Virus record (IMG/VR): IMGVR_UViG_3300042868_012858 | Coordinates: 1 to 64,000 of that record | Strand: one strand, 5' to 3' | DNA from: a virus | Length of the DNA stretch: 64,000 nt | Part shown: positions 25,701 to 44,296 of the stretch, piece after piece | Layout: every line of letters starts with the position of its first letter | Numbering within the stretch: position 1 is the first letter of the stretch | Program-made: the position numbers and the translations under genes | Notes under the pieces: generated by a model | What the model was told of the DNA's origin: nothing | The model's input: only the letters and a program-made list of their open reading frames with translations | The model's database searches: none

Positions 25701-26354
25701 ATGTCAAAGCATTATATTATAGAAAGGGCTAAATCTAGATTGGGAAGCCCTACGATGAATTTAGAATTGGATGATAAAATTGTAGATGCGTTATTTGACG
25801 AAGCATCATCAACATTTTTATATTACTACCAACTTTCTAAAGCAAAGGAAAATAGTGTTTTTCAAAATATAACTGACAATAGTCTTAGTAAAATAGAAAC
25901 CTCTTGGGTTTGTAGATATTTTACTGCATTACTAAAAGAGGCCCTTGGAAATGTAAGAGGCAAGTTTGGTGGTGAAATTAATGTTCCTGGCGGACCATTT
26001 AAATTAGAGTATTCGCATTTACTTAGAGAAAGTGAATCGGAAAAGATATCTCTTATTAAAGACATATATCCTCATCACGAATATAGCGCTTCTCCATTTG
26101 CGCTACTTGGTGTTTATGTAAATATTGGAAATTTAGATACAAAAGATGCAGAGGCAATAATGGATAAAGTGTCTCACTCTTTTTCAGAAACACTTCCAAA
26201 GTATATCAAAACAGTCATTATGCCTTCTAGGGTAGAAAGTAAAATAGAAGTAGTTTATTCAAATAATTCAAATAAAGAAATAGATTTTGAGTTATTAGAA
26301 CAACTTAAAGACTTAGACAAAGAATTAGAAAAATACATTAAAGATGAAGAATAA
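25701..26354 (+). CDS. Second gp13-like neck protein inside the glycan run
   Basis: 217 residues. The first 115 follow the gp13-like protein at 6269-7462: RLGSP--NLELDD near the start, a helix with conserved aromatics, then SWVCRYFTALLKEALG, RGKFGG and a PGG strand, but without the Gly-rich middle insertion. The C-terminal 100 residues (LLGVYVNIGNLDTKDAEAI) are not found in the first copy. I infer a virion attachment protein related to the neck, possibly anchoring an accessory structure. It starts right after one glycosyltransferase stop and overlaps the next by 11 nt, so it is expressed with the glycan genes. Confidence 0.6.
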   Translation: MSKHYIIERAKSRLGSPTMNLELDDKIVDALFDEASSTFLYYYQLSKAKENSVFQNITDNSLSKIETSWVCRYFTALLKEALGNVRGKFGGEINVPGGPFKLEYSHLLRESESEKISLIKDIYPHHEYSASPFALLGVYVNIGNLDTKDAEAIMDKVSHSFSETLPKYIKTVIMPSRVESKIEVVYSNNSNKEIDFELLEQLKDLDKELEKYIKDEE

Positions 26355-27087
26355 CATAAAAGTAATTACCCCTTTTTATAATCCAGGGGAATTTTTAGAA
26401 ACTTGCGTTAATACGCTTATGTCTCAAAAATATGACAACTTTAAAGTATTATTTGTTGACGATTGTTCAACAGATGGTTCATTTGAAAAACTGCCTCACG
26501 ATAATGAAAAGGCAGTTATTATTAAAAATGAAACTAGAAAAACTGCTTTAGAAAACATACACGATGCTATTATGAATCATTGTGATCCTGATGATATTGT
26601 TGTTTTGATTGATGGTGATGATTGGTTGCCAAATAAAAATGTGCTTTCTTATATAAATGACTTTTATAATCAGAATGATTGTTGGATTATGTATGGTCAA
26701 GCCAATTGGACAGATGGCCGTAGAGGTTTTGCGTCTGCATATTCTGCAGAAGAATTTAAAAACATCAGAAAGTCACCGTTTAGAGTATCTCATTTACGAA
26801 CTTTTAAGGCAGGTCTTTATCAAAAAATAAAAGAACAAGATTCTGAGTTTTCCTGTATGAAAGATTCTGATGGAGATTTTTATAAAATGACATATGATGT
26901 CGCTATTATGTTCCCTATTCTAGAAATGGCTGGCGTAGAAAAAGTTGCATTTAATGATACAATTCTGTATATTTACAACAGAAATAATCCAATTAGCGAT
27001 GATAAAGTAAATCAGCAGCTTCAGTGGAATATTCATACAGAAATATCAAACAAAAAATCTTTTAACAAAATAGAAGATTATAAATAA
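26344..27087 (+). CDS. Glycosyltransferase family 2
   Basis: 247 residues. Clear GT2 N-terminus: IKVITPFYNPGEFLETCVNTL, then FKVLFVDDCSTDGS, and the metal-binding region VVLIDGDDWL at about residues 88-97. The DGDDW motif is characteristic of this group. It would transfer a sugar from a nucleotide donor to an unknown acceptor in the cytoplasm; no membrane anchor. Overlaps the gp13-like gene by 11 nt and directly abuts the paralogous GT2 at 27088. Confidence 0.9.
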   Translation: MKNNIKVITPFYNPGEFLETCVNTLMSQKYDNFKVLFVDDCSTDGSFEKLPHDNEKAVIIKNETRKTALENIHDAIMNHCDPDDIVVLIDGDDWLPNKNVLSYINDFYNQNDCWIMYGQANWTDGRRGFASAYSAEEFKNIRKSPFRVSHLRTFKAGLYQKIKEQDSEFSCMKDSDGDFYKMTYDVAIMFPILEMAGVEKVAFNDTILYIYNRNNPISDDKVNQQLQWNIHTEISNKKSFNKIEDYK

Positions 27088-27828
27088 ATGGAGAATTTTT
27101 TTACCATAGCCATAGACACTTGCAATCATAAAGATTGGATTGAAAGGTGTCTAAATACTTGTCTTACTCAAAAATATGACAATTATGAAGTTGTATTGGT
27201 TGATGCATTGTCTGATGATAATACTTTTGAAATTGCCGAGCGATATGCAAAAGAATTTCCTAGATTAAAAATTTACCAAAACGAAGTAAGAATACCTCAG
27301 ATAGCTAATTTTTTGTGGCTTACAGAATTATCTAGACCAAACTCAATAGTTGTATCGGTGGATGGTGATGACTGGCTTAAGCACGGAAAAGTACTTAGTA
27401 AGTTAAATGATGTTTATAACTCTGGAGATGTATGGATGACTTATGGTACATATGAAGAATTTCCATATAGAGACGTTTCTTCAATATATCAGCCATATCC
27501 ACAGGAAGTAGTAGAAAATAACTCGTTCAGGGAATATAGATGGTTGGCATCTCATTTAAGAACCTATAGACGAGAGTTATTTCTTAAAATTAATTTAGAA
27601 GATTTTAAGAGAGAAGATGGTGAGTGGTTGGATACAGCTGGAGATCAAGCTATGATGCTTCCTATGTTAGAAATGGCTTCAGAAAGAAGTAGACATATTT
27701 CAGAAGCATTACTTGTGTATAATGTAGCTAATGTTACAAGAGATGGTGCTTTAAATGAATCAAGACAAGTCGAACTTGCTAACTATGTGAGGTCGAAAAA
27801 TAAATACACTAGATTAGAAAGTTTATAA
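27088..27828 (+). CDS. Glycosyltransferase family 2 (paralogue)
   Basis: 246 residues, paralogous to the preceding gene: FTIAIDTCNHKDWIERCLNT, YEVVLVDALSDDNT and VVSVDGDDWL at residues 90-99, plus a shared ASHLRTYRRELF segment also seen as VSHLRTFKAGLY upstream. Tandem duplication with divergence suggests two successive linkages of similar type. No membrane segment. Starts 1 nt after the previous stop; its own stop overlaps the next start (TAATG). Confidence 0.9.
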   Translation: MENFFTIAIDTCNHKDWIERCLNTCLTQKYDNYEVVLVDALSDDNTFEIAERYAKEFPRLKIYQNEVRIPQIANFLWLTELSRPNSIVVSVDGDDWLKHGKVLSKLNDVYNSGDVWMTYGTYEEFPYRDVSSIYQPYPQEVVENNSFREYRWLASHLRTYRRELFLKINLEDFKREDGEWLDTAGDQAMMLPMLEMASERSRHISEALLVYNVANVTRDGALNESRQVELANYVRSKNKYTRLESL

Positions 27829-28529
27829 TGGTTATAGGAAATGGAATGTTGGCAAAGGCTTTTGGTTCATATATAAAAAACGAAAACGTTATTATATATG
27901 CATCTGGTGTGTCCAATTCCGCTGAAAATTCCGATGAAAACTTCCAAAGAGAAATAAATTTACTAAAAAGTTGTATTCAAGAAAATACAAATAGTTTAAT
28001 AATATACTTTAGTACGTGTAGTGTGAACGATGATAGTTTAAAAGATACTAAATATGTTCAACATAAAAAATTCATAGAAGATTATATTCAAAAAAACGCA
28101 CAAAAGTTTATTATTTTCAGGCTACCGATAGTAATTGGACATACAAAAAATAATTTCACGCTATTCAATTTTTTAAAAGAAAAATTATCTTCAAACCAAG
28201 ATGTGTTCATTCAAAAAAATGCATATAGATATTTAGTTGATATAGAAGATATTTCAAATGTTTTATCTAGAGTTATAGATTCTGGAGAATTTTCAAATTC
28301 TATAATTGATGTTAATTTTAGCAAGAAAATCAGTGTATTGGAAATATCTAATATTATCAAAAAAGAACTACAATCAAATTCAAAAATTAGCATAGTAGAT
28401 GGTGGCGGTTCTTATTATGTAAATGATTCACAATTAAATGGTTTTATTTCCAATAAAAAAATAAATTTTCCTGAAACATATAACGAAGAAGTATTAAAAA
28501 AATATTTAAAAAAAACAATCGAAGTATGA
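27828..28529 (+). CDS. NAD-dependent epimerase/reductase-like protein
   Basis: 233 residues. A short-chain dehydrogenase fold: nucleotide-binding start VIGNGMLAKAF, strand IIYFSTCSV, then YVQHKK that supplies the YxxxK pair, and IIFRLPIVIG followed by YLVDIEDISNVL. These match extended SDR enzymes acting on nucleotide sugars, but the protein is short (usual 290-330), lacking much of the substrate domain. May act on a nucleotide-linked keto sugar; substrate not predictable. Coupled to both neighbours by overlapping start and stop codons. Confidence 0.75.
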   Translation: MVIGNGMLAKAFGSYIKNENVIIYASGVSNSAENSDENFQREINLLKSCIQENTNSLIIYFSTCSVNDDSLKDTKYVQHKKFIEDYIQKNAQKFIIFRLPIVIGHTKNNFTLFNFLKEKLSSNQDVFIQKNAYRYLVDIEDISNVLSRVIDSGEFSNSIIDVNFSKKISVLEISNIIKKELQSNSKISIVDGGGSYYVNDSQLNGFISNKKINFPETYNEEVLKKYLKKTIEV

Positions 28530-29413
28530 TTAATCAATTGAAGTTTAAGATAAATGAAAACAAAATAGACTATGAGTCTATAAAATCAAACGCAATAATC
28601 AACTTGCTAAATGATGAAGAGTTTGATGTCAATATTATAATTGGTTGCAGAGGAAGAAAGAATTTTACTATGCCACTAATAGAGAGTTTTGAAAATGCGA
28701 TAAAAAATACTCCAAATAAAAAAATCACTATTACGTTTGTGGATCATAATACATTTCCAGAGCATATGAAGCTTGTGAAAGGAAGAGCTAGTTATATGTG
28801 GACAGAAGGTAATGTGTCCGACCAATATAGTAGAAGTTTTGCTTATAATTTTGGTGTTAAATATGGAAATAATGCTAAGTTCTATTTACTGCATGACTTG
28901 GACATTTTAGTCAAGGAAAACTTTTTTAACGAGCTTTTTGAAAACCTAGGAGAACAAAAGTGTATACAGCCATACGGAGGTAGAAGAGTTCTATATATGT
29001 CTGAAAGCTTAACTAAAAGAGTTATAGAAAAAGAAATAGATTATAACAATTTCAATCAAGATTCTCCAGAAGTTAGCTTACCTATGTTTAATGGTCAACC
29101 TGCGCTTGGGTCAAAAGGCGGATCAATCTTTATAGAGAGAGAATTGTTTGAAGAGGTTGGTGGTTTTGATCCTGAGTTATTTTGGGGGTATGCTGCAGAA
29201 GACCAATTTTTTTGGGAGAAAGTTAACGCTGTTTCAAAAGTCGGGTTTGCAGATAGTCCTTTAGTAGATATGTTTCACATGTGGCATCCACCTTCTTATG
29301 TTACAAATCCATTGCTTCATATTATGGAAAATGATTGGATTATGTTTAAGAATTTAAACACAGAAGAAAAGATGGAAATAATTAATCTAAAAAAGAAATT
29401 ATATGCAGAATAA
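28526..29413 (+). CDS. Glycosyltransferase, GT7-like (galactosyltransferase type)
   Basis: 295 residues. FDVNIIIGCRGR opens the GT-A domain; FYLLHDLDILV carries a DxD-type motif near residue 127; the C-terminal part has GGSIFIERELFEEVGGF followed by WGYAAEDQFFW, which matches the GT7 C-terminal domain signature (GG-s/t-F-GG/NGF-WGWG-ED). GT7 enzymes transfer Gal or GalNAc. Start overlaps the previous stop by 4 nt, end overlaps the next gene by 11 nt. Confidence 0.8.
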   Translation: MINQLKFKINENKIDYESIKSNAIINLLNDEEFDVNIIIGCRGRKNFTMPLIESFENAIKNTPNKKITITFVDHNTFPEHMKLVKGRASYMWTEGNVSDQYSRSFAYNFGVKYGNNAKFYLLHDLDILVKENFFNELFENLGEQKCIQPYGGRRVLYMSESLTKRVIEKEIDYNNFNQDSPEVSLPMFNGQPALGSKGGSIFIERELFEEVGGFDPELFWGYAAEDQFFWEKVNAVSKVGFADSPLVDMFHMWHPPSYVTNPLLHIMENDWIMFKNLNTEEKMEIINLKKKLYAE

Positions 29414-30296
29414 GGCTTTTATATTCACAGAATCTTATGGGTGTGGTCTAATATTAAAAAAATGTTTAGAATCTTTTTTTAGGCATCATCCCGATACTAT
29501 AGTTCACGTATTTGGTACTCACAAAGACTTTAAAGAGTTGGGTAAATTCAAAAATGTAGAATATATTGAACTGAGTGAAGATTTGGAGCTTAAAGAATGT
29601 TTTAAGCATGGTCACCTAGGAACTGCTCACATAGGAGCTAGGGTCATAAAAGAATTTTCAAAAGGATTTGATTACATCATTCATTTTGATAGCGATGTAA
29701 TATTTCAAAAAGAATCTCTTTCTTTGTTGTACGATAAAATTGATGAAGGATACGATTTAATAGGACCTGTTAGATGTTATAAAAATAATATGAATGGTAG
29801 AACAGATTTGTCTGAATTATCAGATGTTTCTCAAACATATTTTTATGCGTTTAACAAAACAAAAATAAGCGACTATAGTTTTGTTGATTTAAGAAATATG
29901 ATTGTTGGTTTTCACAATCCTTTGAATCATCCAATATTAGATTACTTTGATCCTGTTTCTTTTGATATTTTAAAAAATGGAGGTAAGTCTTATTTTCTAA
30001 ATGTAGATTTGGTTGGAGGTTTAACTCTTGAGGGAAACAGAAAAAATAAATATGAAGAATTGAATAGCGACATGGATTTCGGAGAAAACCTAATGCATTT
30101 TGCTGGAGTCGGATCTGGAATGAAATTTCATTTTCAAGGGGCAGAGCAAACAAATCAATCATATGTAGATTGGGCTCTTAAAAGATTTGCTTTGTATTAC
30201 AAATTATTTTATGGAATTTCTATAGATAATGTTGAGGTTGATGATAAAAAGTTTGAATTACTAAAAAAAGAAATCGATGAAACAGCTAATTGTTAG
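29403..30296 (+). CDS. Putative glycosyltransferase (GT-A, DSD motif)
   Basis: 297 residues. An N-terminal strand AFIFTESYGCGLILKKCLESF, and FDYIIHFDSDVIF at about residues 90-102 with a DxD metal-binding motif, followed by a YDLIGPVRCY strand. The C-terminal half holds YFLNVDLVGGLTLEG and HFAGVGSGMKFHFQG. I recognise the superfamily but not the family; donor and acceptor unknown. It overlaps both neighbours (11 and 20 nt), typical of this run. Confidence 0.75.
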   Translation: MQNKAFIFTESYGCGLILKKCLESFFRHHPDTIVHVFGTHKDFKELGKFKNVEYIELSEDLELKECFKHGHLGTAHIGARVIKEFSKGFDYIIHFDSDVIFQKESLSLLYDKIDEGYDLIGPVRCYKNNMNGRTDLSELSDVSQTYFYAFNKTKISDYSFVDLRNMIVGFHNPLNHPILDYFDPVSFDILKNGGKSYFLNVDLVGGLTLEGNRKNKYEELNSDMDFGENLMHFAGVGSGMKFHFQGAEQTNQSYVDWALKRFALYYKLFYGISIDNVEVDDKKFELLKKEIDETANC

Positions 30297-31077
30297 CAAT
30301 ATAGATCCGTCTTGGCCTAATATAGAAGTAGAATACGCTAAACCTATAGAATTGTTTATTGATAGTCTTAATGGATATAATCCAGCTAAAAATTCTTTTA
30401 AGATTTTATGGGTAAAAGAAATGGAGGCTATTAGTAATTTTAGGAGCACAGCTATAGATAATAAAGATAAGTTTGATGCTATTCTGACTTATGATGAGGA
30501 AATATTAAAACAATGTGAAAATGCACACCTGATGTTATTTGGAACATCCTGGGTGCACAACTATAATTTTTCTGATAAAAAATTTCAAGTATCTCATCTT
30601 ACTGGTCATAAAAACTATGCAGTCGGACATAAACTTAGACAAAAAATTCATTATAAACAAAATAGTATAAAAACGCCAAAGGATTTTTATATTAGTAAAT
30701 ATGGAGGTGTGGAAAATTTTGCTAATAACAAAATCTTGGGTGAACAAAAAGAGCCTTTGTTTGATTCTCAGTTCCATATTTGTATAGAAAATTCTCAGCA
30801 GTCCAATTGCTTTACTGAAAAAATTATGGATTGTTTTGTAACTAAGACAATTCCTATTTACTTTGGTGCGCCAAATATCGACAAATACTTTGACATAAAT
30901 GGCGTTCTTGTGGTGAATAATTTTGAAGACATTTTAAGCGTATGTAATTCATTGACCGAAGAAGATTATATTAGTAGGATATTTTCTGTAGAAAAAAACT
31001 TTGAATTAGCTCAAAAATATATTACTATTGTTGATAGACTTAAGAGCGTAATAATTAATATAATTGAAAAAAAATAA
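30277..31077 (+). CDS. Fucosyltransferase-like glycosyltransferase (GT10)
   Basis: 266 residues. The C-terminal half has the GT10 signature: FHICIENSQQSNCFTEKI then PIYFGAPNIDKYFD (about residues 165-205), equivalent to the FENS...TEK...P-v-yGaP motif of alpha-1,3/1,4-fucosyltransferases, in which the Glu and Lys contact GDP-fucose. The N-terminal acceptor half is variable, as usual. The cluster also encodes Gmd and a GDP-fucose synthase-type enzyme, so the donor could be made in place. Shorter than most GT10 proteins (300-400). Cytoplasmic by sequence. Confidence 0.85.
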   Translation: MKQLIVSNIDPSWPNIEVEYAKPIELFIDSLNGYNPAKNSFKILWVKEMEAISNFRSTAIDNKDKFDAILTYDEEILKQCENAHLMLFGTSWVHNYNFSDKKFQVSHLTGHKNYAVGHKLRQKIHYKQNSIKTPKDFYISKYGGVENFANNKILGEQKEPLFDSQFHICIENSQQSNCFTEKIMDCFVTKTIPIYFGAPNIDKYFDINGVLVVNNFEDILSVCNSLTEEDYISRIFSVEKNFELAQKYITIVDRLKSVIINIIEKK

Positions 31078-31083
31078 AATAGT

Positions 31084-31800
31084 ATGGACAAAAATAAGCC
31101 TTTAATAACTATTATTATACCTTGTTATGAGATGAGAGGTGAGGGTGTGTCGTTTTTAAACTTTTCTCTTGAAAAAATCTACTCACAAAGCTATAAAAAT
31201 ATAGAAGTGTTGATTTCAGACCAATCAAATAATTCAGATATTTTTGAAGCCGTTAAAGCTTGGGATAAAAAATTAAACATCAAATATTTTTTGAATACAG
31301 GATCAGAGAAGAGTTCATCATCAAACTTAAATTTTGCCCTGAAAAAAATATCCGAAGAAACAAAGTATGTCAAATATTTATTTCAAGATGATTTCTTGTT
31401 AAACGAAGAATCAATTCAATTGACAATAGATTCTTTAGAATTAAATCCAGATAAACATTGGCTTGTAAGCTCTTGCTACCATAGTAATAATGGTCAAGAC
31501 TTATATTATCCTTTTGAACCGTATTTTTATGAAGACATATTTTTGGGAGAACCTAATTCTATTAGCGCACCATCTGTATTAACGGTAAGAAGAGAGGCTG
31601 CAATAGATTTTGATAAAAATTTGATATGGCTAATGGATGTTGACTATTATAGACGACTTTATGATGAGTTTGGAGAGCCAATTATATTAGATAAACACAC
31701 TGTAGTAAACAGAACTTGGGGAGGTCAAGTTGGAAACAATGTAAGTGCAGAAACACAAGAAATAGAAAAAAATATTGTAACAGAAAAATTTAAAAAATAA
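31084..31800 (+). CDS. Glycosyltransferase family 2
   Basis: 238 residues. ITIIIPCYEMRGEGVSFLNF start, IEVLISDQSNNSDIFE, and VKYLFQDDFLLNEES, where QDD takes the place of the usual DxD. LIWLMDVDYYRRLYDEFGEP near the end resembles the GT2 acceptor-site segment containing the catalytic acidic residue. This variant GT2 is typical of polysaccharide and O-antigen loci. Acceptor unknown. It begins 6 nt after the GT10 gene. Confidence 0.85.
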   Translation: MDKNKPLITIIIPCYEMRGEGVSFLNFSLEKIYSQSYKNIEVLISDQSNNSDIFEAVKAWDKKLNIKYFLNTGSEKSSSSNLNFALKKISEETKYVKYLFQDDFLLNEESIQLTIDSLELNPDKHWLVSSCYHSNNGQDLYYPFEPYFYEDIFLGEPNSISAPSVLTVRREAAIDFDKNLIWLMDVDYYRRLYDEFGEPIILDKHTVVNRTWGGQVGNNVSAETQEIEKNIVTEKFKK

Positions 31801-31802
31801 AA

Positions 31803-32372
31803 ATGGAAAAAATTGAAGACATATTCAAACAAAAATGCTTAATAAGTAATGATATAAATGAGCATTTACCTGTATTAAAAAAATATACAGAGGATTGTGA
31901 TGTAGTGGTAGAAGCTGGAGTTAGAAGTATTGTTTCTACTTGGGCTTTTTTAGCTGGCAAACCTAAAGAGTTAATATCAGTAGATATAATACACCCATCT
32001 ACCTACATTAACCACGACCCTAGTGGTTGTAACATTAATTTAGTAGAACAATTGGCGCACGAAAATGACATTAATTTTAGATTTATGTTAGGTAGTACTC
32101 TAGAAATTGAAATTCCTGAATGTGACCTTTTGTTTCTAGACACTCTCCATAATTATAGCCAGTTAAAAAAAGAGCTAGAACTGCACTCAAATAAGGCTAA
32201 AAAATACATCATACTGCATGATACAGAAAGTTTTAAAGATAAAGGAGAAACCAATAATGAAGACGGCATAGGAAGAGCTTTAGATGAATTTTTAGAAGAG
32301 GGAAATTGGGTAATTAGAGAAAGGTTGACAAACAACAATGGTTTAACTATTTTAGTTCCAAAAAATGCTTAG
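31803..32372 (+). CDS. SAM-dependent methyltransferase-like protein
   Basis: 189 residues. Rossmann-like pattern: VVVEAGVRSIVSTWAFL (motif I), ELISVDI, CDLLFLDTLHNYSQLKKEL and YIILHDTESF. The D-T-L-H and HDT signatures match the Methyltransf_24 / cephalosporin-hydroxylase-like group that methylates sugars or amino sugars. A sugar O-methyltransferase role is inferred from the surroundings. The next start lies 8 nt inside its end. Confidence 0.75.
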   Translation: MEKIEDIFKQKCLISNDINEHLPVLKKYTEDCDVVVEAGVRSIVSTWAFLAGKPKELISVDIIHPSTYINHDPSGCNINLVEQLAHENDINFRFMLGSTLEIEIPECDLLFLDTLHNYSQLKKELELHSNKAKKYIILHDTESFKDKGETNNEDGIGRALDEFLEEGNWVIRERLTNNNGLTILVPKNA

Positions 32373-32997
32373 TCTGAAAAATGTAACTTTAGTGGCAGTA
32401 ACCTCAATAAAGATTGATGAAACAATAAATGCGTTAGAAAAAAGTTGTCAATTTATTGATTTTTATGATGTAAAATTAATTACAGATAAAAATATTGTTC
32501 ACGAAAAAATAAAAACAGAAAAATGCAACCCTATCAATAACATAGATGAATATAGTAGATTTATGATATATGACTTAAAAAATCATATAGAGACAGATTT
32601 TGTATTAGTGATTCAATATGATGGATTTGTAATAAATCCAGAGTGTTGGGATGATATTTTTTTTGAATATGACTATATTGGAGCTCCGTGGCCTAAAAAT
32701 AAGTTTTTTAATGATGACAATGTAAACATAAGAGTTGGAAATGGCGGTTTTTCTTTTAGGAGTAAAAAACTTTTAAACCTCCCGTCCGAACTTAAAATTC
32801 CATTTCTCCCCTATAAAGGGTATTATAATGAAGATGGGTTTTTAACAGCTGCCCATAGAAAAACATTAATAGAGAACGGAATTAAATATGCACCAGTTGA
32901 AATTGCTGGAAAGTTCTCAAAAGAACTAGAATGTGATGATGTGCCTAATCAGAAAACCTTTGGTTTTCATAAAGAAAACTTAAACTTGTATTTATAA
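32365..32997 (+). CDS. DUF5672-type putative glycosyltransferase
   Basis: 210 residues. Conserved features of the DUF5672 family: YSRFMIYDL, DFVLVIQYDGFVINPECW, YDYIGAPWP and VGNGGFSFRSKKLL. This family occurs in glycan loci and shows a GT-A-like half-domain with an IQ-x-DG in place of DxD, but its biochemical activity is, to my knowledge, not established. The first 8 nt overlap the methyltransferase-like gene. Confidence 0.8.
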   Translation: MLSLKNVTLVAVTSIKIDETINALEKSCQFIDFYDVKLITDKNIVHEKIKTEKCNPINNIDEYSRFMIYDLKNHIETDFVLVIQYDGFVINPECWDDIFFEYDYIGAPWPKNKFFNDDNVNIRVGNGGFSFRSKKLLNLPSELKIPFLPYKGYYNEDGFLTAAHRKTLIENGIKYAPVEIAGKFSKELECDDVPNQKTFGFHKENLNLYL

Positions 32998-32998
32998 A

Positions 32999-33619
32999 AT
33001 GTCAATAACAAAACAAGAAATAAAAAACCTAATAAATAACAGCGCTCCTGTTATTTTTGAAATAGGGTGTGCAGACGGGATAGATACTTTGGAATTTATC
33101 AACACATTTAATGAGTCATCTTTTAAACTATTTTGCTTTGAACCAGATCCTAGAAACATAGAAGAGTTTAAAAAGAGAGTAAGTGATTCTAGGGTGTTTT
33201 TGCATGAAATAGCAATTGGAGACAAGGACGGCTTAACAACATTTAACCAATCCTCTACAATATATTCATCATCTTTAAAAAACCCAAATATAGAAAATAT
33301 TCAAAAAACATGGCCTATGATAAATTTTGAAAATAGTTTTGATGTAATTGTTACAACTATAGATAGTTTTATCAAAGACAACTCAATAGAAATTGTAGAT
33401 TTTATTTGGGCGGATGTGCAAGGCGCTGAGGATTTAATGATATCGGGAGGGAAAAATTCTCTCATTGATAAAGTTAGATATATGTATACAGAATATAGCA
33501 ATGTAGAATACTATGAAAATGAACCAAGTCTAAATAAAATCATTGAACTTATGGGTGATAATTGGGAAGTTGTACAAGTTTTTGCAGCAGATGTTCTTTT
33601 AAAAAACAAAAATTTATAA
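32999..33619 (+). CDS. FkbM-family methyltransferase
   Basis: 206 residues. FkbM signature: VIFEIGCADGIDTLEFI (motif I near residues 18-34), KLFCFEPDPRNIEEFKK, FLHEIAIGDKDG, VTTIDSFI and IVDFIWADVQGAEDLMISGG. The FEPDP and D-Q/V-x-GAE elements are diagnostic. FkbM proteins O-methylate sugars or polyketides using S-adenosylmethionine. With the adjacent second FkbM this suggests methyl caps on the glycan. Confidence 0.9.
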   Translation: MSITKQEIKNLINNSAPVIFEIGCADGIDTLEFINTFNESSFKLFCFEPDPRNIEEFKKRVSDSRVFLHEIAIGDKDGLTTFNQSSTIYSSSLKNPNIENIQKTWPMINFENSFDVIVTTIDSFIKDNSIEIVDFIWADVQGAEDLMISGGKNSLIDKVRYMYTEYSNVEYYENEPSLNKIIELMGDNWEVVQVFAADVLLKNKNL

Positions 33620-33623
33620 AACC

Positions 33624-34328
33624 ATGATACTATACGATAGCAGTAAATTAGACCGATTAAAATACAAATTTGAAGGGTGCGAAACAATAGATAGAAATTA
33701 TTCGCAAGCTTATCAGGATATGTTTGTATTAACAATGTTAAACGGTAAAAAGAATGGAACATATTTGGAAATAGGCGCTATGGATGCCGTGTTTATTAAT
33801 AATACATTTCTCTTAGAGAGTAGGTTTGGATGGAGAGGTCTATCTGTAGATATAGACCCGTCATCTAAAGATACGTTTGTAAACAATGGCAGAAAAAATG
33901 ATTTCATACTAGGAGATGCCCTTGAAGTAGATTATGATAAATTCTTTCAAGATAATAATTATGGTAGCCGAATAGATTTTCTCCAAGTTGATGTCGAGCC
34001 ACAATCTCAAACATTAGCTTGTTTAAAGAAGTTGCCTTTTGACAAATATAGATTCTCTGTAATAGCATTTGAAACAGACTTTTATGATAACTCAAATGGA
34101 GAAGAAGAGTCTCTTAAGAATAGGGAAGAATCAAGAGCATTCTTAAAGTCTCATGGTTATGAACTGATAGTAGGTAATATAGCTAATATTGGTCCGCTTG
34201 GAACTGATGATTTATCTCCGTTTGAAGATTGGTATGTGGATCCAACAGTAGTTGATTCTAATTTAATCAATTTATTTAAATCATCTTCTGAGTTTAATAA
34301 ATCAGCAGAGGATTTTATGTGTGATTAA
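33624..34328 (+). CDS. FkbM-type methyltransferase
   Basis: 234 residues. NYSQAYQDMFVLTML start, then GTYLEIGAMDAVFINNTFLLE (motif I), GWRGLSVDIDPSS, IDFLQVDVEPQSQTLACLKK and FSVIAFETDFY. The S-Q-x-x-QD--l...G-ylEiGA-d and D-v-E pattern is typical of a subgroup of FkbM methyltransferases. Likely a sugar O-methyltransferase. Placed 5 nt after the first FkbM gene; they are distant paralogues, not a recent duplication. Confidence 0.85.
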   Translation: MILYDSSKLDRLKYKFEGCETIDRNYSQAYQDMFVLTMLNGKKNGTYLEIGAMDAVFINNTFLLESRFGWRGLSVDIDPSSKDTFVNNGRKNDFILGDALEVDYDKFFQDNNYGSRIDFLQVDVEPQSQTLACLKKLPFDKYRFSVIAFETDFYDNSNGEEESLKNREESRAFLKSHGYELIVGNIANIGPLGTDDLSPFEDWYVDPTVVDSNLINLFKSSSEFNKSAEDFMCD

Positions 34329-34330
34329 TT

Positions 34331-35272
34331 ATGATTGTAACGGAATTGTATAATGGTCAAGGCTTAGGCAATCAATTATGGTGTTATGCTGTAACTAGGG
34401 TTATTGCTGCTGATAACGATTTTGGTTTTGGTATAATATCTCCTGAAAAATTCAAAGGCAATAATATATTAAATTTAGATTTCGGTAAGCAGGTTATTGG
34501 AGGTAAATCCCCAGAGGGAGGACCTCCAATAACTCTTCCGAATGGAATAGCTTCTTATTACAGGGAAAAGTACGAACAACACCCTTATTTTAGATGTGAT
34601 ATCTCACCATTAGACTTAAACTTAGTTAGTGTGTGCGATAATACTAAAATAGAGGGCGTCATGCAATCTGTAGGTTATATCCATCATAGAAAAGATGACA
34701 TATTAAAATGGCTGAAAATAAAAGATGAGGGTAATGTTGACAATACGCATTTAGGTGAAAATGTATGCGTTGTTCATATACGTGGAGGTGATTTTAGAGG
34801 AGTTTCAGACACTATATTACCGAAGAGCTATTTTATTAATTCTATGGAAAAAATAAAGCTAGTTAATGAAAAAATTGAATTTGTAATAGTAACAGATGAT
34901 GTTCAATATGCCAAGAGTATACTGCCTGGTGTAAAAATAATAGGATCATCAGAGTTTAGTGCAGAAGATTCTTTCAAGGCTAGTCATCATTTAGGAGGAC
35001 CGATTGAACACGACTACTCTATAATAAACAAAGCAAGGTATTTGATATTATCTAACTCTAGCTTTAGTTGGTGGGCAGCTTATACAAATGTTGATTTGCA
35101 ATTTTTAATAGCTCCTAAATATTGGGCTAAACACAATATTTCAGATGGGTTTTGGTCAACTGATGACATAATGACTCCAGGGTGGAACTATATTGACAAA
35201 GAAGGTAATCTTTTTAGTTATGAAGATTGTAGAAAAGAACTTGATGAATATAAAAAAATTAAAAATGAGTAA
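34331..35272 (+). CDS. Alpha-1,2-fucosyltransferase-like (GT11)
   Basis: 313 residues. GT11 features: an N-terminal GQGLGNQLWCYA, VVHIRGGDF near residue 147 (the H-x-R-x-G-D donor motif; the second Arg of the usual HxRRGD is Gly here), FVIVTDDVQYAKSIL, and YLILSNSSFSWWAAYT, the strongly conserved SNSTFSWWAA-type motif. Family members add L-fucose from GDP-fucose to the 2-position of Gal or related sugars. Fits with the GDP-sugar genes downstream. The end overlaps the next gene by 8 nt. Confidence 0.87.
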   Translation: MIVTELYNGQGLGNQLWCYAVTRVIAADNDFGFGIISPEKFKGNNILNLDFGKQVIGGKSPEGGPPITLPNGIASYYREKYEQHPYFRCDISPLDLNLVSVCDNTKIEGVMQSVGYIHHRKDDILKWLKIKDEGNVDNTHLGENVCVVHIRGGDFRGVSDTILPKSYFINSMEKIKLVNEKIEFVIVTDDVQYAKSILPGVKIIGSSEFSAEDSFKASHHLGGPIEHDYSIINKARYLILSNSSFSWWAAYTNVDLQFLIAPKYWAKHNISDGFWSTDDIMTPGWNYIDKEGNLFSYEDCRKELDEYKKIKNE

Positions 35273-36152
35273 ACCAAAAGTGTATGATTGTTTTATTTTT
35301 TTTAATGAACTTGATTTATTAGAAATAAGACTAAATATAATGAATCAGTTTGTAGACTATTTTGTTATAGTGGAATCAAACAAAACATTTTCTGGAAAAG
35401 ATAAATCGTTTATACTAGAAGAAAACATGCATAGATTTTCTTCTTTTAAGGATAAAATAATTTACAAAAAAATAGAAGATACTCCAGAAGATTTTGTAAA
35501 TATCAAATCTTGTTTTGATGAAAAAAATTACAAATTTGACAACCCTAAAGAACTTGAGGTTATTAAAAACATAGCATCTTATATAGAAAATACTACTTAT
35601 TGGCCGAGAAACGAAACACAGTGGGGTAGGGAAATATTTCAAAGAGAGTGTATGTTGAGGTGTTTAACTAATTGTGATGATAATGATATAGTAATGTTAT
35701 CAGATTTAGATGAAATACCCAACTTAAACATTTGTAATTTTGAAGATATTTTATTAGATTTACCTATAACTTCTAAACAGCATATGTTTTATTATTTTTT
35801 GAACTACAGATTAGATGAGATTTGGATTGGAACAAAAATATGCAGATATAGATATTTAAAAAAAGATTTTGTAAACGAAGTAAGAAGATTAAGGGAGACT
35901 GAATACTCATTACCTAATTTAGGTTGGCATTTTTCTTTCTTGGGTGGCATCGAAAAAATAAAACAAAAAATAGAAGCTTTTTCTCACCAAGAATACAACA
36001 ATGATTCTATAAAATCAAATATAGAAGAAAATGTAAAGAGCGGAAACGATATATTTGGTCGAGGAAAAAGTGTACGAAAAGTGGAGGTTGATGATTCATT
36101 TCCTCTTTTTCTAATAGAAAATAAAACAAAATATAATAAATTTTTTATATAA
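35265..36152 (+). CDS. GT17-like N-acetylglucosaminyltransferase
   Basis: About 295 residues from the ATG at 35265 (MSKPKVYDC); a longer frame from 35193 lies mostly inside the previous gene, so it is rejected. GT17 markers: VYDCFIFFNELDLLEIRL, YFVIVESNKTFSGK, a W-x-RE-x-QR segment, IVMLSDLDEIPN (the DxDE motif), and GWHFSFLGGIEKIKQKI followed by HQEYN. The reference GT17 enzyme is beta-1,4-mannosyl-glycoprotein GlcNAc-transferase (bisecting GlcNAc); bacterial and phage members are common in glycan loci, with unknown acceptors. Confidence 0.87.
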   Translation: MSKPKVYDCFIFFNELDLLEIRLNIMNQFVDYFVIVESNKTFSGKDKSFILEENMHRFSSFKDKIIYKKIEDTPEDFVNIKSCFDEKNYKFDNPKELEVIKNIASYIENTTYWPRNETQWGREIFQRECMLRCLTNCDDNDIVMLSDLDEIPNLNICNFEDILLDLPITSKQHMFYYFLNYRLDEIWIGTKICRYRYLKKDFVNEVRRLRETEYSLPNLGWHFSFLGGIEKIKQKIEAFSHQEYNNDSIKSNIEENVKSGNDIFGRGKSVRKVEVDDSFPLFLIENKTKYNKFFI

Positions 36153-36157
36153 AAATC

Positions 36158-36937
36158 ATGGAAAACAATAAAATTAAATTAGATTTTTTAAAAAGGGTAT
36201 TAACCGATACAGTTTATAATGATGAGGTGAGAAACTCTTTTTTTGATACAAAAGAATTCCCAGGTGTTGATGTTATGAATAGCATTATAAACTCTTCAGT
36301 GGAAGAGAAAAGAATGGGTGGTATGGATTGGCCAGAAAGAGCTCATACTATGGTGGGAGTTAAGAGATTGAATAATTTACACGAAACTTTAGATTATATA
36401 AGAAAAAATAATATAGACGGAGACTTTATAGAAACTGGCGTGTGGAGAGGAGGGGCTTCTATATTTATAAAGCTATATAATGATTTGTATTCATTAAATA
36501 GAAATGTGTTTGTAGCAGACTCTTTTGCTGGACTACCACCTCCTGATTCAGATAAATACCCAGTAGATGAAGGTGACATCCATCACACTATACCATATCT
36601 TAGTGTTTCATTGGATCAAGTTACAGAAAATTTCAAACTATACAACGCTCTTGATGAATCTGTAATTTTTCTGAAAGGTTGGTTTAGTGACACTCTAAAA
36701 AATAATGATAACATAAAAAATTTAGCACTACTAAGGTTTGATGGAGATATGTACGGTTCTACTATGGATGTGTTTGAAAATTTATACCACAAGGTTAATT
36801 CAAAAGGGGTGATTATTGTTGATGACTACTGCCTGCCAAACTGTGTAAAAGCAGTAACTGATTTTAGACAAAAGAATAATATAACAAATGAAATAAAAAC
36901 AGTTGATTCATGCGGGGTGTATTGGATTAAAGATTAA
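36158..36937 (+). CDS. TylF/macrocin-type O-methyltransferase
   Basis: 259 residues. GMDWPERAHTMVGVKRLNNL, then GDFIETGVWRGGASIF near residue 90, NVFVADSFAGLPPPD, LALLRFDGDMYGSTMDV and GVIIVDDYCLPNCVKAV. These are the defining features of the TylF (Pfam MT family of macrocin O-methyltransferase) group, which methylate deoxysugar hydroxyls using SAM and a metal held by the D-x-D and DD residues. It supports a methylated deoxysugar as final product. Confidence 0.92.
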   Translation: MENNKIKLDFLKRVLTDTVYNDEVRNSFFDTKEFPGVDVMNSIINSSVEEKRMGGMDWPERAHTMVGVKRLNNLHETLDYIRKNNIDGDFIETGVWRGGASIFIKLYNDLYSLNRNVFVADSFAGLPPPDSDKYPVDEGDIHHTIPYLSVSLDQVTENFKLYNALDESVIFLKGWFSDTLKNNDNIKNLALLRFDGDMYGSTMDVFENLYHKVNSKGVIIVDDYCLPNCVKAVTDFRQKNNITNEIKTVDSCGVYWIKD

Positions 36938-36950
36938 ATCTATGTAAAAT

Positions 36951-37601
36951 ATGAAAACATTAGACGAAATAGCCATAGAACATAAAACAGATAAATCTAG
37001 TATATCACATAATTATACAGAACATTACGCAAATCATTTTGAAAAAATAAGATTTAATAATCTGAAAGTTTTGGAAATAGGAATCCAAAATGGTTTCTCA
37101 TTAAAAATGTGGAAAGAATATTTTGAGAACTCTACAATAGTTGGTATAGATTTAACGGATTTAACTCATCTAAAAGAAGATAGAGTGGAAATAGAAGTTG
37201 GGAATCAATCAGATGAAGATTTTTTAAAAAGAGTTAGCGAACAATATGGACCATTTGATATAATAATTGATGATGGAAGCCATAAAAGTATAGATATTAG
37301 AAAAAGTTTTTATTGTTTATTCCCACTATTAAAAAATGGAGGGTATTATGTAGTTGAAGATTTACATACAAATTATTGGGAAAGAAATAACATCACAGAA
37401 GGTTGGTTTATTAATGAAAATTATGATACTTTCATAAATGACATTAAATTGTTTATCGACTATTCTAATTCTAATGGTAAAAGTGGTTATGCCAATAGAA
37501 AAATGGATGATACACACGCTTTTCAAGAAATGAATTATTGGGAAAAAAATATATACTCCGTGCATTCCTATAGAAGTATTTGCTTCATAAATAAGTGCTA
37601 A
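36951..37601 (+). CDS. SAM-dependent methyltransferase
   Basis: 216 residues. VLEIGIQNGFSLKMWKEYF near residue 41 (motif I), TIVGIDLTD, FDIIIDDGSHKSIDI and LLKNGGYYVVEDLHTNYW. The D-D-G-S-H and V-E-D-L-H-T pattern is typical of small methyltransferases in polysaccharide and macrolide sugar loci. The N-terminal KTLDEIAIEHKTDKS is also conserved in that group. Probably O-methylates a sugar. Fifth methyltransferase-like protein in this run. Confidence 0.85.
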   Translation: MKTLDEIAIEHKTDKSSISHNYTEHYANHFEKIRFNNLKVLEIGIQNGFSLKMWKEYFENSTIVGIDLTDLTHLKEDRVEIEVGNQSDEDFLKRVSEQYGPFDIIIDDGSHKSIDIRKSFYCLFPLLKNGGYYVVEDLHTNYWERNNITEGWFINENYDTFINDIKLFIDYSNSNGKSGYANRKMDDTHAFQEMNYWEKNIYSVHSYRSICFINKC

Positions 37602-37613
37602 TTATATTTTAGA

Positions 37614-38795
37614 ATGAATGCAACGAATAATCAAATAACCTTAGTAAAAGACACAATTAACAATAATGATATAGACAATTTGATATCATGGTTAGAGACG
37701 TACCCTAAATTGACTAAAGGTGAAAAGACGATTGAATTTGAAGAAATGTGGTCAAAGTGGATGGGGTGTAAATATTCTGTATTTGTTAATTCAGGATCAT
37801 CCGCAAATCTACTGATGTTCTATGCATTGAAAGAACTTTATAAGTTAAGGAATAATAAGATTGCGATACCAGCATTGAGTTGGGCTACAGATTTATCGCC
37901 AGCAATTCATCTAGGATTTGAACCAATATTAGTAGATTGTAATCTAGATAATTTATCTGTTGATTTAAAGCATTTAGAAGAGCTTTTTAAAGAAGAAGCT
38001 CCGTCTGCTCTAGTTTTAGTATCTGTGTTAGGGTTAGCTCCTGAAATTGATAAGATTGTAAGTTTATGTAAAAAATACGATGTTATTTTATTGGAGGATA
38101 ATTGTGAAAGCCAAGGCACATCAGTAAACGAATTGAAATTGGGTAATTTTGGATTGATGTCTTCTTTTTCAACTTATTTTGGGCACACTATGAGTACAAT
38201 AGAGGGTGGTATGGTGTGCACTAACGATAAAGCTGTTTATAATATGATTAAACAGCTTAGAAGTCATGGGTGGGATAGAGATTTGGATGTTGAAACGCAA
38301 AGAAAACTACGAAATGATTGGAATGTAGATTCATTTTCATCTCTTTATACTTTTTATGTACCAGGATTCAATTTAAGATCTACTGACTTGCAAGCTGTTA
38401 TAGGAATAGGGCAACTCAAAAAGATTGATGATATGATTTCAAAAAGAAACGAGAATTTTAAAAAATTCTCTGACTTATTAAAAGGTCATACTTGGTTTCC
38501 AAAAGAAACGGACAATAGCTTCACATCTAGCTTCTGTATTCCTATAATTGCAGTAAGTTCTGAACAAAAAAAAAGAATAGTTGACAAATTAATAAATAAT
38601 GGTGTTGAGTGTAGACCTTTGATATGCGGCTCTATGGGGACTCAGCCTTTCTATGTAAAAAAATACGGAAGAAAAGAATTGCCAAACGCTTCAATTGTTG
38701 ATTCTTGTGGTTTGTATGTTCCAAATCATCCAAATCTTACAGATGAAGAAATTGAAAGAATTTGCAATTGCATATTAACTTCATTAATAAAATAA
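37614..38795 (+). CDS. PLP-dependent sugar 3-dehydratase-like (ColD-type, DegT fold)
   Basis: 393 residues, full-length DegT/DnrJ/EryC1 fold (VNSGSSANLL near residue 60, IPALSWATDLSP, VLLEDNCES with Asp162). In ordinary family aminotransferases a lysine six residues before the EGG motif forms the PLP Schiff base; here the sequence is TYFGHTMSTIEGG and the equivalent residue is His191. Histidine here is the hallmark of ColD (GDP-4-keto-6-deoxymannose 3-dehydratase) and RfbH. The next genes make the ColD substrate, so 3-deoxygenation of GDP-4-keto-6-deoxymannose is the best guess. Alternative: an inactive or novel aminotransferase. Confidence 0.8.
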   Translation: MNATNNQITLVKDTINNNDIDNLISWLETYPKLTKGEKTIEFEEMWSKWMGCKYSVFVNSGSSANLLMFYALKELYKLRNNKIAIPALSWATDLSPAIHLGFEPILVDCNLDNLSVDLKHLEELFKEEAPSALVLVSVLGLAPEIDKIVSLCKKYDVILLEDNCESQGTSVNELKLGNFGLMSSFSTYFGHTMSTIEGGMVCTNDKAVYNMIKQLRSHGWDRDLDVETQRKLRNDWNVDSFSSLYTFYVPGFNLRSTDLQAVIGIGQLKKIDDMISKRNENFKKFSDLLKGHTWFPKETDNSFTSSFCIPIIAVSSEQKKRIVDKLINNGVECRPLICGSMGTQPFYVKKYGRKELPNASIVDSCGLYVPNHPNLTDEEIERICNCILTSLIK

Positions 38796-38798: not shown

Positions 38799-39716
38799 AT
38801 GGAAAATAGAATTATTGTCACAGGCGGTAATGGACTATTAGGTAGTGCTGTTAAAAATAAAATTGAAGCTTTCACTTTTAGTAGCTCAGAATATAATCTA
38901 GAAAAAGATAGTTTTTCAAAACTACTTTCTTTACCAACAAATCAATCGGTAGATACAATTATACATTGTGCGGCAAAAGTGGGAGGTGTAGGTGCAAATA
39001 TGAACGCAAACTTTGAGTTCTTCCAAAAGAATGTAAAAATTGACCAAAATGTATTAAATTCCTGCTTAGAGCATAGAATAGAAAATCTTGTAACAATATT
39101 ATCAACTTGTGTATTTCCTGATAAAGTTGAATACCCGCTTACTGCAGATAAAATTGATTTAGGTGCGCCACACTTTTCTAATTATGGATATTCTTACGCA
39201 AAAAGACTATTGTATTACCAAACTAAGATGTATAGAAATGTGGTTGGTAAAAATTGGATTTCGGTCATACCAACAAACTTATATGGAGCTAACGACAACT
39301 TCAATTTAGAAAATTCTCATCTTATTCCAGCTTTAATAAGAAAAGCTCACGAAGCATCTATAAGCGGTGAAAATTTTGTCGTTTGGGGAGATGGTTCTCC
39401 ATTGCGTCAATTTGTTTATTCGGAAGATATGGCAAAGATTATTCTTTGGGCTGTAGAAAATTGGAAATCAGAAAGTCCTTTGATGGCTGTAAATGAAAGA
39501 GAGTATTCCATCAAAGAAGTTGCTATGATTATTGCGGATAGATTTGGAATTTCTGAAAATAAAATTATATTTGATAAAACCAAGCCTAATGGTCAATTTA
39601 GGAAGCCAGCAAAGTCGGATGTGAATTGGTTCGAATTTACACCACTTGACGAAGGTATAAATAAGACAATAGATTGGTTTGTTGAAAATTATAATAAAAA
39701 TAATATAAGACTTTAA
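38799..39716 (+). CDS. fcl: GDP-L-fucose synthase-type epimerase/reductase
   Basis: 305 residues. NAD(P)-binding TGGNGLLGS (residues 8-16), AAKVGGVGAN (58-67), STCVFPDK with Ser102 and Cys104, YSYAK with Tyr131 and Lys135, NLYGANDNF, and His174 in SHLIPALI. The serine, cysteine, tyrosine, lysine and histidine correspond to Ser107, Cys109, Tyr136, Lys140 and His179 of E. coli GDP-fucose synthase with a constant offset of five. It converts GDP-4-keto-6-deoxymannose to GDP-L-fucose. Because a ColD-like gene precedes it, a ColC role (GDP-L-colitose synthesis) is an alternative. Confidence 0.87.
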   Translation: MENRIIVTGGNGLLGSAVKNKIEAFTFSSSEYNLEKDSFSKLLSLPTNQSVDTIIHCAAKVGGVGANMNANFEFFQKNVKIDQNVLNSCLEHRIENLVTILSTCVFPDKVEYPLTADKIDLGAPHFSNYGYSYAKRLLYYQTKMYRNVVGKNWISVIPTNLYGANDNFNLENSHLIPALIRKAHEASISGENFVVWGDGSPLRQFVYSEDMAKIILWAVENWKSESPLMAVNEREYSIKEVAMIIADRFGISENKIIFDKTKPNGQFRKPAKSDVNWFEFTPLDEGINKTIDWFVENYNKNNIRL

Positions 39717-39717: not shown

Positions 39718-40776
39718 ATGAAAAAAGCGCTGATTTTTGGAATCACAGGACAAGATGGGAGTTATCTTGCTGAGTTGTTGTTGGAGAAAGGGTATGAGGT
39801 TCATGGGGTGATAAGAAGATCTTCGTCTTTTAACACTGGTAGGCTTGAACATATATTTAGTAAGTTAGTACTTCACTATGGAGACGTTACAGACCCTTTA
39901 GCTGTGACAAATATAATCTCGCAAATCAAACCTGATGAAATTTATAATTTATCAGCTCAATCTCATGTTAAAGTTTCTTTTGAGATGCCGTATTATACAG
40001 GAATGGTTGATTCATTAGGTACAATGGCTGTATTAGAAGCTATGAGAGCTCATTGCCCAACTTCAAAATTCTATCAGGCATCCACTTCTGAGTTATATGG
40101 AGGAATGGAACATAATAGACCTGAAACTGGTTATACTGAAGAGTCTCCTTTTCACCCAAGAAGCCCTTACGGTGTTGCTAAAATCTATGGATTTTGGGCT
40201 GTAAAAAACTATCGAGAAGCATATAATCTTTATGCGTGCAACGGAATTCTGTTCAATCACGAATCACCTAGAAGGGGTGGTACTTTTGTAACAAAGAAGG
40301 TTGTGGATGCGCTTGTTGAAGTTAAGTGCAATAACGGAAAGCCTCTAAAAATAGGAAATTTAGAAGCTAAAAGAGATTGGGGTTACGCAAAAGAATATGT
40401 TGAAGGTATGTGGCTTATGCTACAACAAGATAAGCCTGAAGACTTTGTGTTGGCTACAGGAGAAGTTCATGCAGTTAGAGAACTTGTTGAAGTTACCGCA
40501 ACTCATTTGGGTTATGAAATAAAATGGGAAGGTGAAGGTGTAGAAGAAAAAGGATACGATTCAAAAACAGGTAAACTTCTTGTTGAAGTAGATTCTCAAT
40601 ATTTTAGACCATCTGAAGTTGATTATTTATTGGGTGACCCTAAAAGAGCTCAAGAAATATTGGGTTGGGAACCAAAAACAAAATTTAAAGAATTGATTAA
40701 CATTATGGTAGATCACAGATTGTGCAACTACCCTTCTCATTCTGTTGATTTAATTAAAGAAGTTAGTGAAAAATAA
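39718..40776 (+). CDS. gmd: GDP-mannose 4,6-dehydratase
   Basis: 352 residues, standard length. GITGQDGSYLAELLL at the N-terminus, VIRRSSSFNTGR, the STSELYGG substrate loop, YGVAKIYGFW (YxxxK) and LFNHESPRRGGTFVTKK, all diagnostic of Gmd. It makes GDP-4-keto-6-deoxy-D-mannose from GDP-mannose, the common precursor of GDP-fucose, GDP-rhamnose, GDP-perosamine and GDP-colitose. GDP-mannose itself must come from the host, since no mannose pathway gene is seen here. Begins 1 nt after the fcl stop and overlaps galE by 11 nt. Confidence 0.96.
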   Translation: MKKALIFGITGQDGSYLAELLLEKGYEVHGVIRRSSSFNTGRLEHIFSKLVLHYGDVTDPLAVTNIISQIKPDEIYNLSAQSHVKVSFEMPYYTGMVDSLGTMAVLEAMRAHCPTSKFYQASTSELYGGMEHNRPETGYTEESPFHPRSPYGVAKIYGFWAVKNYREAYNLYACNGILFNHESPRRGGTFVTKKVVDALVEVKCNNGKPLKIGNLEAKRDWGYAKEYVEGMWLMLQQDKPEDFVLATGEVHAVRELVEVTATHLGYEIKWEGEGVEEKGYDSKTGKLLVEVDSQYFRPSEVDYLLGDPKRAQEILGWEPKTKFKELINIMVDHRLCNYPSHSVDLIKEVSEK

Positions 40777-41755
40777 AAAGGTTTTAATTACTGGAGGTTT
40801 AGGTTATATCGGAAGTCATACAATTGTTAAACTATACGAGAATGGGTATGAGCCGATTATAATTGACAACCTTTCAAATTCAAATATATCAGTACTTGAT
40901 AGTATTGAAGAGATTGTTGGTACTAAACCTTTGTTTTATGAACTAGATATTGAAAGAGATGTTGCTCAAATATGTCAAATGTTATTAAGAGAAAAGGTAG
41001 AGTATGTCATTCATTTCGCAGGATATAAATCTGTTAAAGAATCAGTCGTAAATCCTATAAAGTATTTTTCTAATAACATAAACTCTACTACGCAACTTCT
41101 ATACGCCCTTCAGATATCTGGTGTTAAAAAATTAATTTTTTCTTCTTCTGCAACAGTTTATGGGGAGGCGGATTATTTTCCAGTTACCGAAAATACTCCT
41201 AGAAAAAAGCCAACAAACCCTTATGGTGAATCTAAATATATTTGTGAAGATATAATAGAAACAACCTGTAAGTTCACTGACTTATCCGCAGTATCATTAA
41301 GATATTTTAATCCAATAGGAGCTCATCCATCTGGTAAGATATTTGAAAACCCAAAAGGCATTCCAGAAAATTTAGTACCATATATCCAAAGAGTAATAAG
41401 TGGTGAGTATGAAAAGCTTACTATTTTTGGAAATGATTACGACACAATAGACGGAACGTGTATTAGAGATTATATCGATGTAAATGATTTAGCTCAAGCT
41501 CACATAAATGCACTTAATGTTTGTGAAAATGGCTATAAGTTTTACAATATAGGATCTGGAAGTGGTTACTCTGTATTGGAATTAATAAACGAATTCAAAA
41601 AACAATCAATAGATGTTCCTTTTATTTTTGCAAGTAGAAGAAGTGGTGATGTTCCGAAAATATATGCAGATATTACCAAGGCAAAATTAGAAATGAATTG
41701 GAGTCCATCTGTGTCAATAGAAGAAACAATTAAATCTATAATAAATCTAAAATAG
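40766..41755 (+). CDS. galE: UDP-glucose 4-epimerase
   Basis: 329 residues. GGLGYIGSHT near the start, IDNLSNS, FAGYKSVKESV, SSSATVYG (about 126-133), NPYGESK with Tyr153 and Lys157, RYFNPIGAHPSG and DYIDVNDLA. These match GalE, which interconverts UDP-glucose and UDP-galactose (or GlcNAc/GalNAc forms). It could supply the donor for the GT7-like enzyme at 28526. Last gene of the run, followed by a 62-nt gap holding a host-type promoter. Confidence 0.93.
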   Translation: MKNKKVLITGGLGYIGSHTIVKLYENGYEPIIIDNLSNSNISVLDSIEEIVGTKPLFYELDIERDVAQICQMLLREKVEYVIHFAGYKSVKESVVNPIKYFSNNINSTTQLLYALQISGVKKLIFSSSATVYGEADYFPVTENTPRKKPTNPYGESKYICEDIIETTCKFTDLSAVSLRYFNPIGAHPSGKIFENPKGIPENLVPYIQRVISGEYEKLTIFGNDYDTIDGTCIRDYIDVNDLAQAHINALNVCENGYKFYNIGSGSGYSVLELINEFKKQSIDVPFIFASRRSGDVPKIYADITKAKLEMNWSPSVSIEETIKSIINLK

Positions 41756-43404: not shown

Positions 43405-43407
43405 AAT

Positions 43408-44166: not shown

Positions 44167-44189
44167 ACAACGAATTGCCAATTTCTATT

Positions 44190-44217: not shown

Positions 44218-44262
44218 TTTATTTTTTTTAAAAAAACTATTTACATTTTTTTGCATACCACA

Positions 44263-44281: not shown

Positions 44282-44296
44282 CTGAATAAAATATAT

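Follow-up and report, generated by a model that had tools for sequence, protein, structure and literature searches.

Why would a phage carry an enzyme of the DegT fold in which the lysine for pyridoxal 5'-phosphate (PLP) has been replaced by a histidine? The question is raised by a gene at positions 37614 to 38795 of a 64,000-nucleotide stretch of viral DNA (the window), which spans positions 1-64,000 of the 73,569-base IMG/VR virus record IMGVR_UViG_3300042868_012858. A ColD-type enzyme removes an oxygen from a sugar where its aminotransferase relatives add a nitrogen. Colitose and other 3,6-dideoxyhexoses are sugars of bacterial O-antigens, colitose being a rare one. A preliminary description of the window had proposed a ColD-like 3-dehydratase in a phage, a proposal supported by sequence comparison, trees, the modelled fold, the active-site residues and the surrounding genes. 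The protein can be assigned with high confidence, on sequence comparison and modelling, as a ColD-type C3-dehydratase of a guanosine diphosphate (GDP) sugar. It probably serves in a phage-borne GDP-L-colitose-type pathway with GDP-L-colitose as the product.

Histidine 191 and the family of the enzyme

37614..38795, plus strand: ColD-like protein of 393 amino acids, predicted pyridoxamine 5'-phosphate (PMP)-dependent GDP-sugar C3-dehydratase (phmmer, Foldseek, trees)
38172..38210, plus strand: motif TYFGHTMSTIEGG with His191 (codon 38184-38186) replacing the PLP lysine (translation, alignments)

Translation of 37614-38795 (+) gave a single open frame of 393 amino acids, in which H191 and E197 of TYFGHTMSTIEGG are separated by six residues. 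The preliminary description had located this histidine six residues ahead of the glutamate of EGG, at the position of the aminotransferase lysine, and the alignments agree. With ColD of Escherichia coli O55:H7 CB9615 (from NC_013941) as the reference in a multiple alignment, H191 shares a column with ColD H188, the residue altered in the H188N/H188K PDB entries 3b8x, 2r0t and 3gr9. Histidine occupies this column in all 56 rows, which comprise all relatives from viruses and metagenome-assembled genomes (MAGs) together with ColD. The fetched bacterial ColD and RfbH sequences also all carry His, in line with the earlier statement that it marks these dehydratases, and PseC-type aminotransferases carry Lys. 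Where a phage locus holds a further DegT gene, that copy serves as an internal control, and in 12 of 13 cases it has Lys in this column. Because His is invariant in the relatives and Lys is present in 12 of these 13 second copies, an alignment slip or a sequencing error is excluded. A lysine at the Schiff-base position, named beforehand as speaking against a dehydratase, was looked for by alignment and not found. Residues W90, D162, E165, S186, R222 and R334 correspond to W88, D159, E162, S183, R219 and R331 of ColD and are kept across ColD and the phage proteins; from the ColD structures we take them to be active-site residues.

A phmmer search against PDB sequences returned ColD first (2gms, 221 bits, then the H188 mutants), followed by RfbH/E1 (119 bits) and then by Lys-type sugar aminotransferases. 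The AlphaFold2 model of the 393-residue protein has a mean predicted local distance difference test score (pLDDT) of 93.6 and a predicted template modelling score (pTM) of 0.91. Foldseek placed ColD chains at all of ranks 1-12 against the PDB (TM 0.87-0.90), with PseC and E1 ranking after them. In the trees the aminotransferases are outermost, followed by RfbH, by a His-type Pseudomonadota group (L079-L083) and by two sister clades, bacterial ColD (support 100/99) and the phage-type proteins (100/99), in agreement with an earlier quick tree. Bacterial ColD and RfbH can be told apart at 39 columns; in 13 of these the phage proteins agree with ColD, in 4 with RfbH and in the remaining 22 with neither, a pattern that fits a ColD-type sister group and not ColD orthologues. 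Since the phage clade is sister to bacterial ColD, the class is given as ColD-type.

An RfbH/E1-type 3-dehydratase of a cytidine diphosphate (CDP) sugar, needing an Fe-S cluster and an E3 reductase, would also carry His at this position, and RfbH/E1 is the next solved family after ColD. The match to the NCBIfam RfbH model NF011936 is weak, however, at 200.5 bits against a cut-off of 423, and the alignment shows the window protein to be devoid of the CxC...C cysteine loop that in RfbH belongs to the 2Fe-2S cluster. Such a cluster is present in E1 and SpnQ and missing in ColD (PMC8987622). The diagnostic columns and the tree also speak against RfbH, and the linked 4,6-dehydratase is Gmd, a GDP-sugar enzyme. 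RfbH was rejected on the cut-off and the missing loop; cysteines and tree largely refute this identification, which is extremely improbable. The overall fold would also suit an inactive enzyme or a common sugar aminotransferase in which one residue is unusual, given that PseC and other aminotransferases follow close behind ColD in the fold search. Against this stand the absence of Lys at the catalytic position, on which an ordinary aminotransferase was rejected, the invariance, throughout a diverse clade, of His and of the ColD-type residues near it, the intact frame and the conserved partner genes. We regard either possibility as very improbable.

Some further His-type proteins were encountered. 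The Pseudomonadota group L079-L083 is 35-39 % identical to ColD and lies outside both ColD and RfbH. A second His-type dehydratase occurs near the ColD-like gene at L019:9954-11267 and at L086:17478-18779; of these two, the one from the 642-kb phage LR756502 resembles RfbH and possesses the cysteine loop. A virus-only clade was considered and rejected, as bacterial members (45 % and 34 % identity) fall inside the phage-type clade.

The sugar gene cluster and its recurrence among phages

The ColD-like gene lies in a sugar cluster of the window (~24.6-41.8 kb) with glycosyltransferases of families 2 (GT2), 10 (GT10), 11 (GT11) and 17 (GT17) and with FkbM and TylF methyltransferases, followed by the ColD-like, Fcl, Gmd and GalE genes.

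24583..37601, plus strand: rest of the glycan cluster, as context: thioredoxin, GT2s, FkbM, TylF and other methyltransferases, GT17, DUF5672 (family profile matches)
30277..31077, plus strand: family 10 glycosyltransferase, fucosyltransferase family (PF00852 26.8 bits, cut-off 23.9)
34331..35272, plus strand: family 11 glycosyltransferase, alpha-1,2-fucosyl/colitosyl-transferase family (PF01531 58 bits, cut-off 23.9)
38799..39716, plus strand: Fcl-type C5-epimerase/C4-reductase, 305 amino acids, FX (animal) type, proposed GDP-L-colitose synthase (PDB matches, residues, trees)
39718..40776, plus strand: Gmd, GDP-mannose 4,6-dehydratase, 352 amino acids (NCBIfam TIGR01472 494 bits, cut-off 415)
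40766..41755, plus strand: GalE-type epimerase, which closes the sugar cluster and is not required by the pathway (TIGR01179 363 bits, cut-off 262)

Gmd was correctly placed two genes downstream by the preliminary description, and the residues of its STSE and YxxxK motifs are conserved. The gene in between, which had not been mentioned, encodes the Fcl-type epimerase/reductase. All five of its catalytic residues are present (S102, C104, Y131, K135 and H174, equivalent to S107, C109, Y136, K140 and H179 of E. coli Fcl). The window GT11 is 29 % identical to GT11 of E. coli O55 (WbgN), an enzyme known to transfer colitose.

The searches for relatives yielded 49 viral and 4 genome loci. Collapsing the ColD-like proteins at 90 % identity left 34 loci, 26 of them with at least 6 kb upstream and at least 2.5 kb downstream; glycosyltransferase families in the related loci were spot-checked by Pfam. 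Among these 26 non-redundant loci, Fcl-type genes and Gmd are each present in 23; 20 have the pair, and none lacks both. Fcl directly abuts the ColD-like gene in 19, and GT11 and GT10 each occur in 18. GT11 is found directly beside Fcl in many relatives, the commonest gene order being GT10-GT11-Fcl-ColD-Gmd. Isolated phages carry the set as well: cyanophage S-CAM7 has gmd, fcl, the ColD-like gene and GT11 in a row, not far from a tail-fibre gene, and cyanophage ACG-2014f has gmd, fcl and the ColD-like gene and, after them, a transferase gene that Pfam assigns to GT11. The cyanophage ColD-like genes are labelled in GenBank as aminotransferase, hypothetical or CDP-4-keto-6-deoxy-D-glucose-3-dehydrase.

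A single-protein scan of genome contigs found only four relatives, three of them on short contigs. One of these three, a MAG contig labelled Deltaproteobacteria (L051/L141), is a phage contig colinear with the window: beside its ColD-like/Gmd/Fcl/GT11 set it has seven genes that correspond, in unchanged order and with 40-63 % identity, to window genes 41818-49224. A MAG contig labelled Lokiarchaeota (L052) also carries this phage module. In L178 and L157 (IMG/VR 3300024256_001036) the ColD-like gene contains five in-frame TGA codons. Reading TGA as Trp gives a full ColD-like protein of 386 amino acids, and four of the five TGA codons align with Trp residues in the window protein, the conserved W90 among them. 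Under translation table 4 the open stretches of at least 200 amino acids in L157 rise from 7 to 15, and IMG/VR 3300024256_001036 is probably a phage in which TGA encodes Trp.

Capsid, tail sheath and baseplate genes are distributed over the two sides of the sugar cluster.

1594..4278, minus strand: tail sheath protein (phrog_23, E 3e-65)
8551..10212, minus strand: T4-type major capsid protein Gp23 (PF07068 242 bits, phrog_138)
53941..55797, plus strand: baseplate wedge protein, beyond the sugar cluster (phrog_219)

Judged by Gp23, the record is that of a T4-like myovirus. Among the closest capsid proteins are those of Flavobacterium phage immuto and Rhodothermus phage RM378, and also one of a Microcystis phage, so that a Bacteroidota host is only a guess. 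An HNH/homing-type endonuclease lies among the structural genes (window 52290-53441, minus strand), and near the record end (record 67935-70718; L056:5935-8718) a protein of 927 amino acids with many short SHAEG/TTA-like repeats is encoded, probably a tail fibre or adhesin.

A proposed colitose-type pathway and its alternatives

The best PDB matches of the window Fcl are 6aqy (240 bits) and human 4b8w (231 bits), with E. coli Fcl at 152, and these scores place the protein closest to the human GDP-fucose synthase and others of eukaryotic type (FX type). The trees separate the phage Fcls from the ColC clade and group cyanophage Fcls with bacterial WcaG. Because the window-type and the WcaG-like cyanophage Fcls differ in lineage, the gene set was probably assembled more than once. 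The window Fcl clade (support 100/100, long stem) has 14 members, 12 linked to ColD and 2 without it. Gmd and Fcl also occur in phages in which no ColD-like gene was found (L149-L153, L155, L156), in records that may be fragments; most of these Fcls fall outside the 14-member clade. A strict tie of phage Fcl to ColD was rejected, as ColD-less phages carry Fcl too. Fcls beside ColD thus appear mostly apart from those of ColD-less phages, as specialisation would look, which is no proof of it.

The substrate, the single reactions, the product and the target of the pathway we infer as follows. Gmd would convert GDP-mannose from the host into GDP-4-keto-6-deoxymannose. With its cofactor restored to PMP by glutamate, the ColD-like enzyme would form a ketimine with the C4 ketone; His191, unable to hold PLP as a Schiff base, would take a proton from PMP, upon which the C3 hydroxyl would leave, and hydrolysis would yield GDP-4-keto-3,6-dideoxymannose. 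Epimerisation at C5 and reduction at C4 by the adjacent Fcl-type enzyme would give GDP-L-colitose, an FX-type Fcl possibly being able to carry out the same reaction class as ColC. GT11 (or GT10) would then transfer colitose to a surface glycan of the host or to one on the virion.

Several observations weigh against this pathway. The window protein lies not inside the bacterial ColD clade that holds the characterised enzyme, to which it is only 35 % identical, but in its sister clade. The phage Fcl was considered as a ColC orthologue and rejected as such by the trees, two Fcls of the window clade occur without ColD, and 3 of the 26 loci have no Fcl nearby. In the window no GDP-mannose-making gene (ManB/ManC) was recognised, so GDP-mannose must be supplied by the host. 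Members of the phage-type clade also reside in bacterial chromosomes, in three related genomes (45 % identity) and two Bacteroidota (34 %), L136-L140, where they adjoin split thiamine-diphosphate enzymes (E1-alpha/beta or transketolase halves) and stand beside GmhA-, HddA- or HddC-like genes, mostly with Fcl; these clusters possibly encode a branched 3-deoxy GDP-sugar pathway. Nor can the substrate be read from the family, because a Campylobacter jejuni C3-dehydratase with 62-67 % identity to ColD acts on a GDP-heptose (PMC10440746).

Another GDP-3,6-dideoxy sugar, with a different start (e.g. GDP-4-keto-6-deoxy-heptose) or finishing step, is one alternative, which we consider unlikely. It draws on the C. 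jejuni HS:5/HS:11 enzymes, on the bacterial clade members with their heptose-type and split thiamine-diphosphate genes, and on the phage loci L018 and L031-L034 without Fcl near. In the sugar cluster of the window, however, none of the genes was recognised as a heptose kinase, isomerase or guanylyltransferase, Gmd passes its cut-off and the Fcl catalytic residues are complete. GDP-mannose is the likelier start there because heptose-type genes were not recognised and Gmd scores above the cut-off; the substrate is likely GDP-4-keto-6-deoxymannose, and the bacterial relatives may use other GDP-sugars. Alternatively, Gmd and Fcl could make GDP-L-fucose as the main or an additional product, used by GT10/GT11, with the ColD-like protein feeding a separate branch. 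The FX type of the window Fcl, the phages with Gmd and Fcl and no ColD, and the annotation of GT10 and GT11 as fucosyltransferase families would agree with this. Yet 20 of the 26 loci hold exactly one Fcl-type gene, usually abutting the ColD-like gene, and the clades of ColD-linked Fcls, among them the long-stemmed window clade, exclude most Fcls of ColD-less phages; a fucose product of this kind is improbable.

For the GDP-L-colitose-type pathway, the colitose suggestion of the preliminary description thus stands in part: the linked Gmd, Fcl-type and GT11 genes were found, the Fcl is not a ColC orthologue, and the product is likely colitose by deduction. A more tentative extension, possible and rather doubtful, is that several kinds of phage independently added a ColD-type dehydratase to a Gmd and Fcl fucose pair, that a non-ColC GDP-fucose synthase became a GDP-colitose synthase, and that phage GT11/GT10 puts colitose on the virion or the host surface. 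If so, one dehydratase gene would act as a switch from fucose to colitose.

Known systems and significance

The E. coli O55 colitose locus harbours gmd, GT11, ColC and ColD, the same parts as the phage set. ColD of E. coli O55:H7 (PDB 2gms, 2r0t, 3b8x, 3gr9) shares with the window protein the fold, the His for Lys, the PMP-site residues, the lack of an Fe-S cysteine loop, and Gmd and GT11 in the same cluster. It differs in that the window protein is 35 % identical to it, belongs to the sister clade, is encoded by a phage and has an FX-type Fcl as partner, not ColC. The S-CAM7 and ACG-2014f clusters present the same gene set in isolated phages, with a His-type protein in the same larger clade, but these proteins are 33-37 % identical to the window protein and their Fcl is of the bacterial (WcaG-like) type. 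RfbH/E1 CDP-4-keto-6-deoxyglucose 3-dehydratase (PDB 3bcx) is a His-type C3-dehydratase of the same fold, with an Fe-S cysteine loop and a CDP-sugar substrate, and is more distant in sequence and tree. PBCV-1 and Mimivirus differ in being viruses of eukaryotes, and we know of no C3-dehydratase in their sugar pathways. The chlorovirus PBCV-1 enzymes for GDP-fucose and GDP-rhamnose and the viosamine pathway of Mimivirus are cases of a virus making its own nucleotide sugar (cited in PMC9614988). The GDP-4-keto-6-deoxy-heptose C3-dehydratase of C. jejuni HS:5/HS:11 performs ColD-type chemistry on a GDP-sugar, but with a heptose substrate and with separate epimerase and reductase enzymes (PMC10440746).

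No link between colitose and phages was found in the open-licence literature. The parts are already in GenBank, in the cyanophage clusters; what is new is the reading and its breadth. Phage genes called aminotransferases or CDP-sugar dehydrases can be corrected in their annotation, a single residue telling the reaction. If the proposed pathway is true, a widespread phage gene set would write rare sugars on virions or hosts, and receptor choice and superinfection would be affected.
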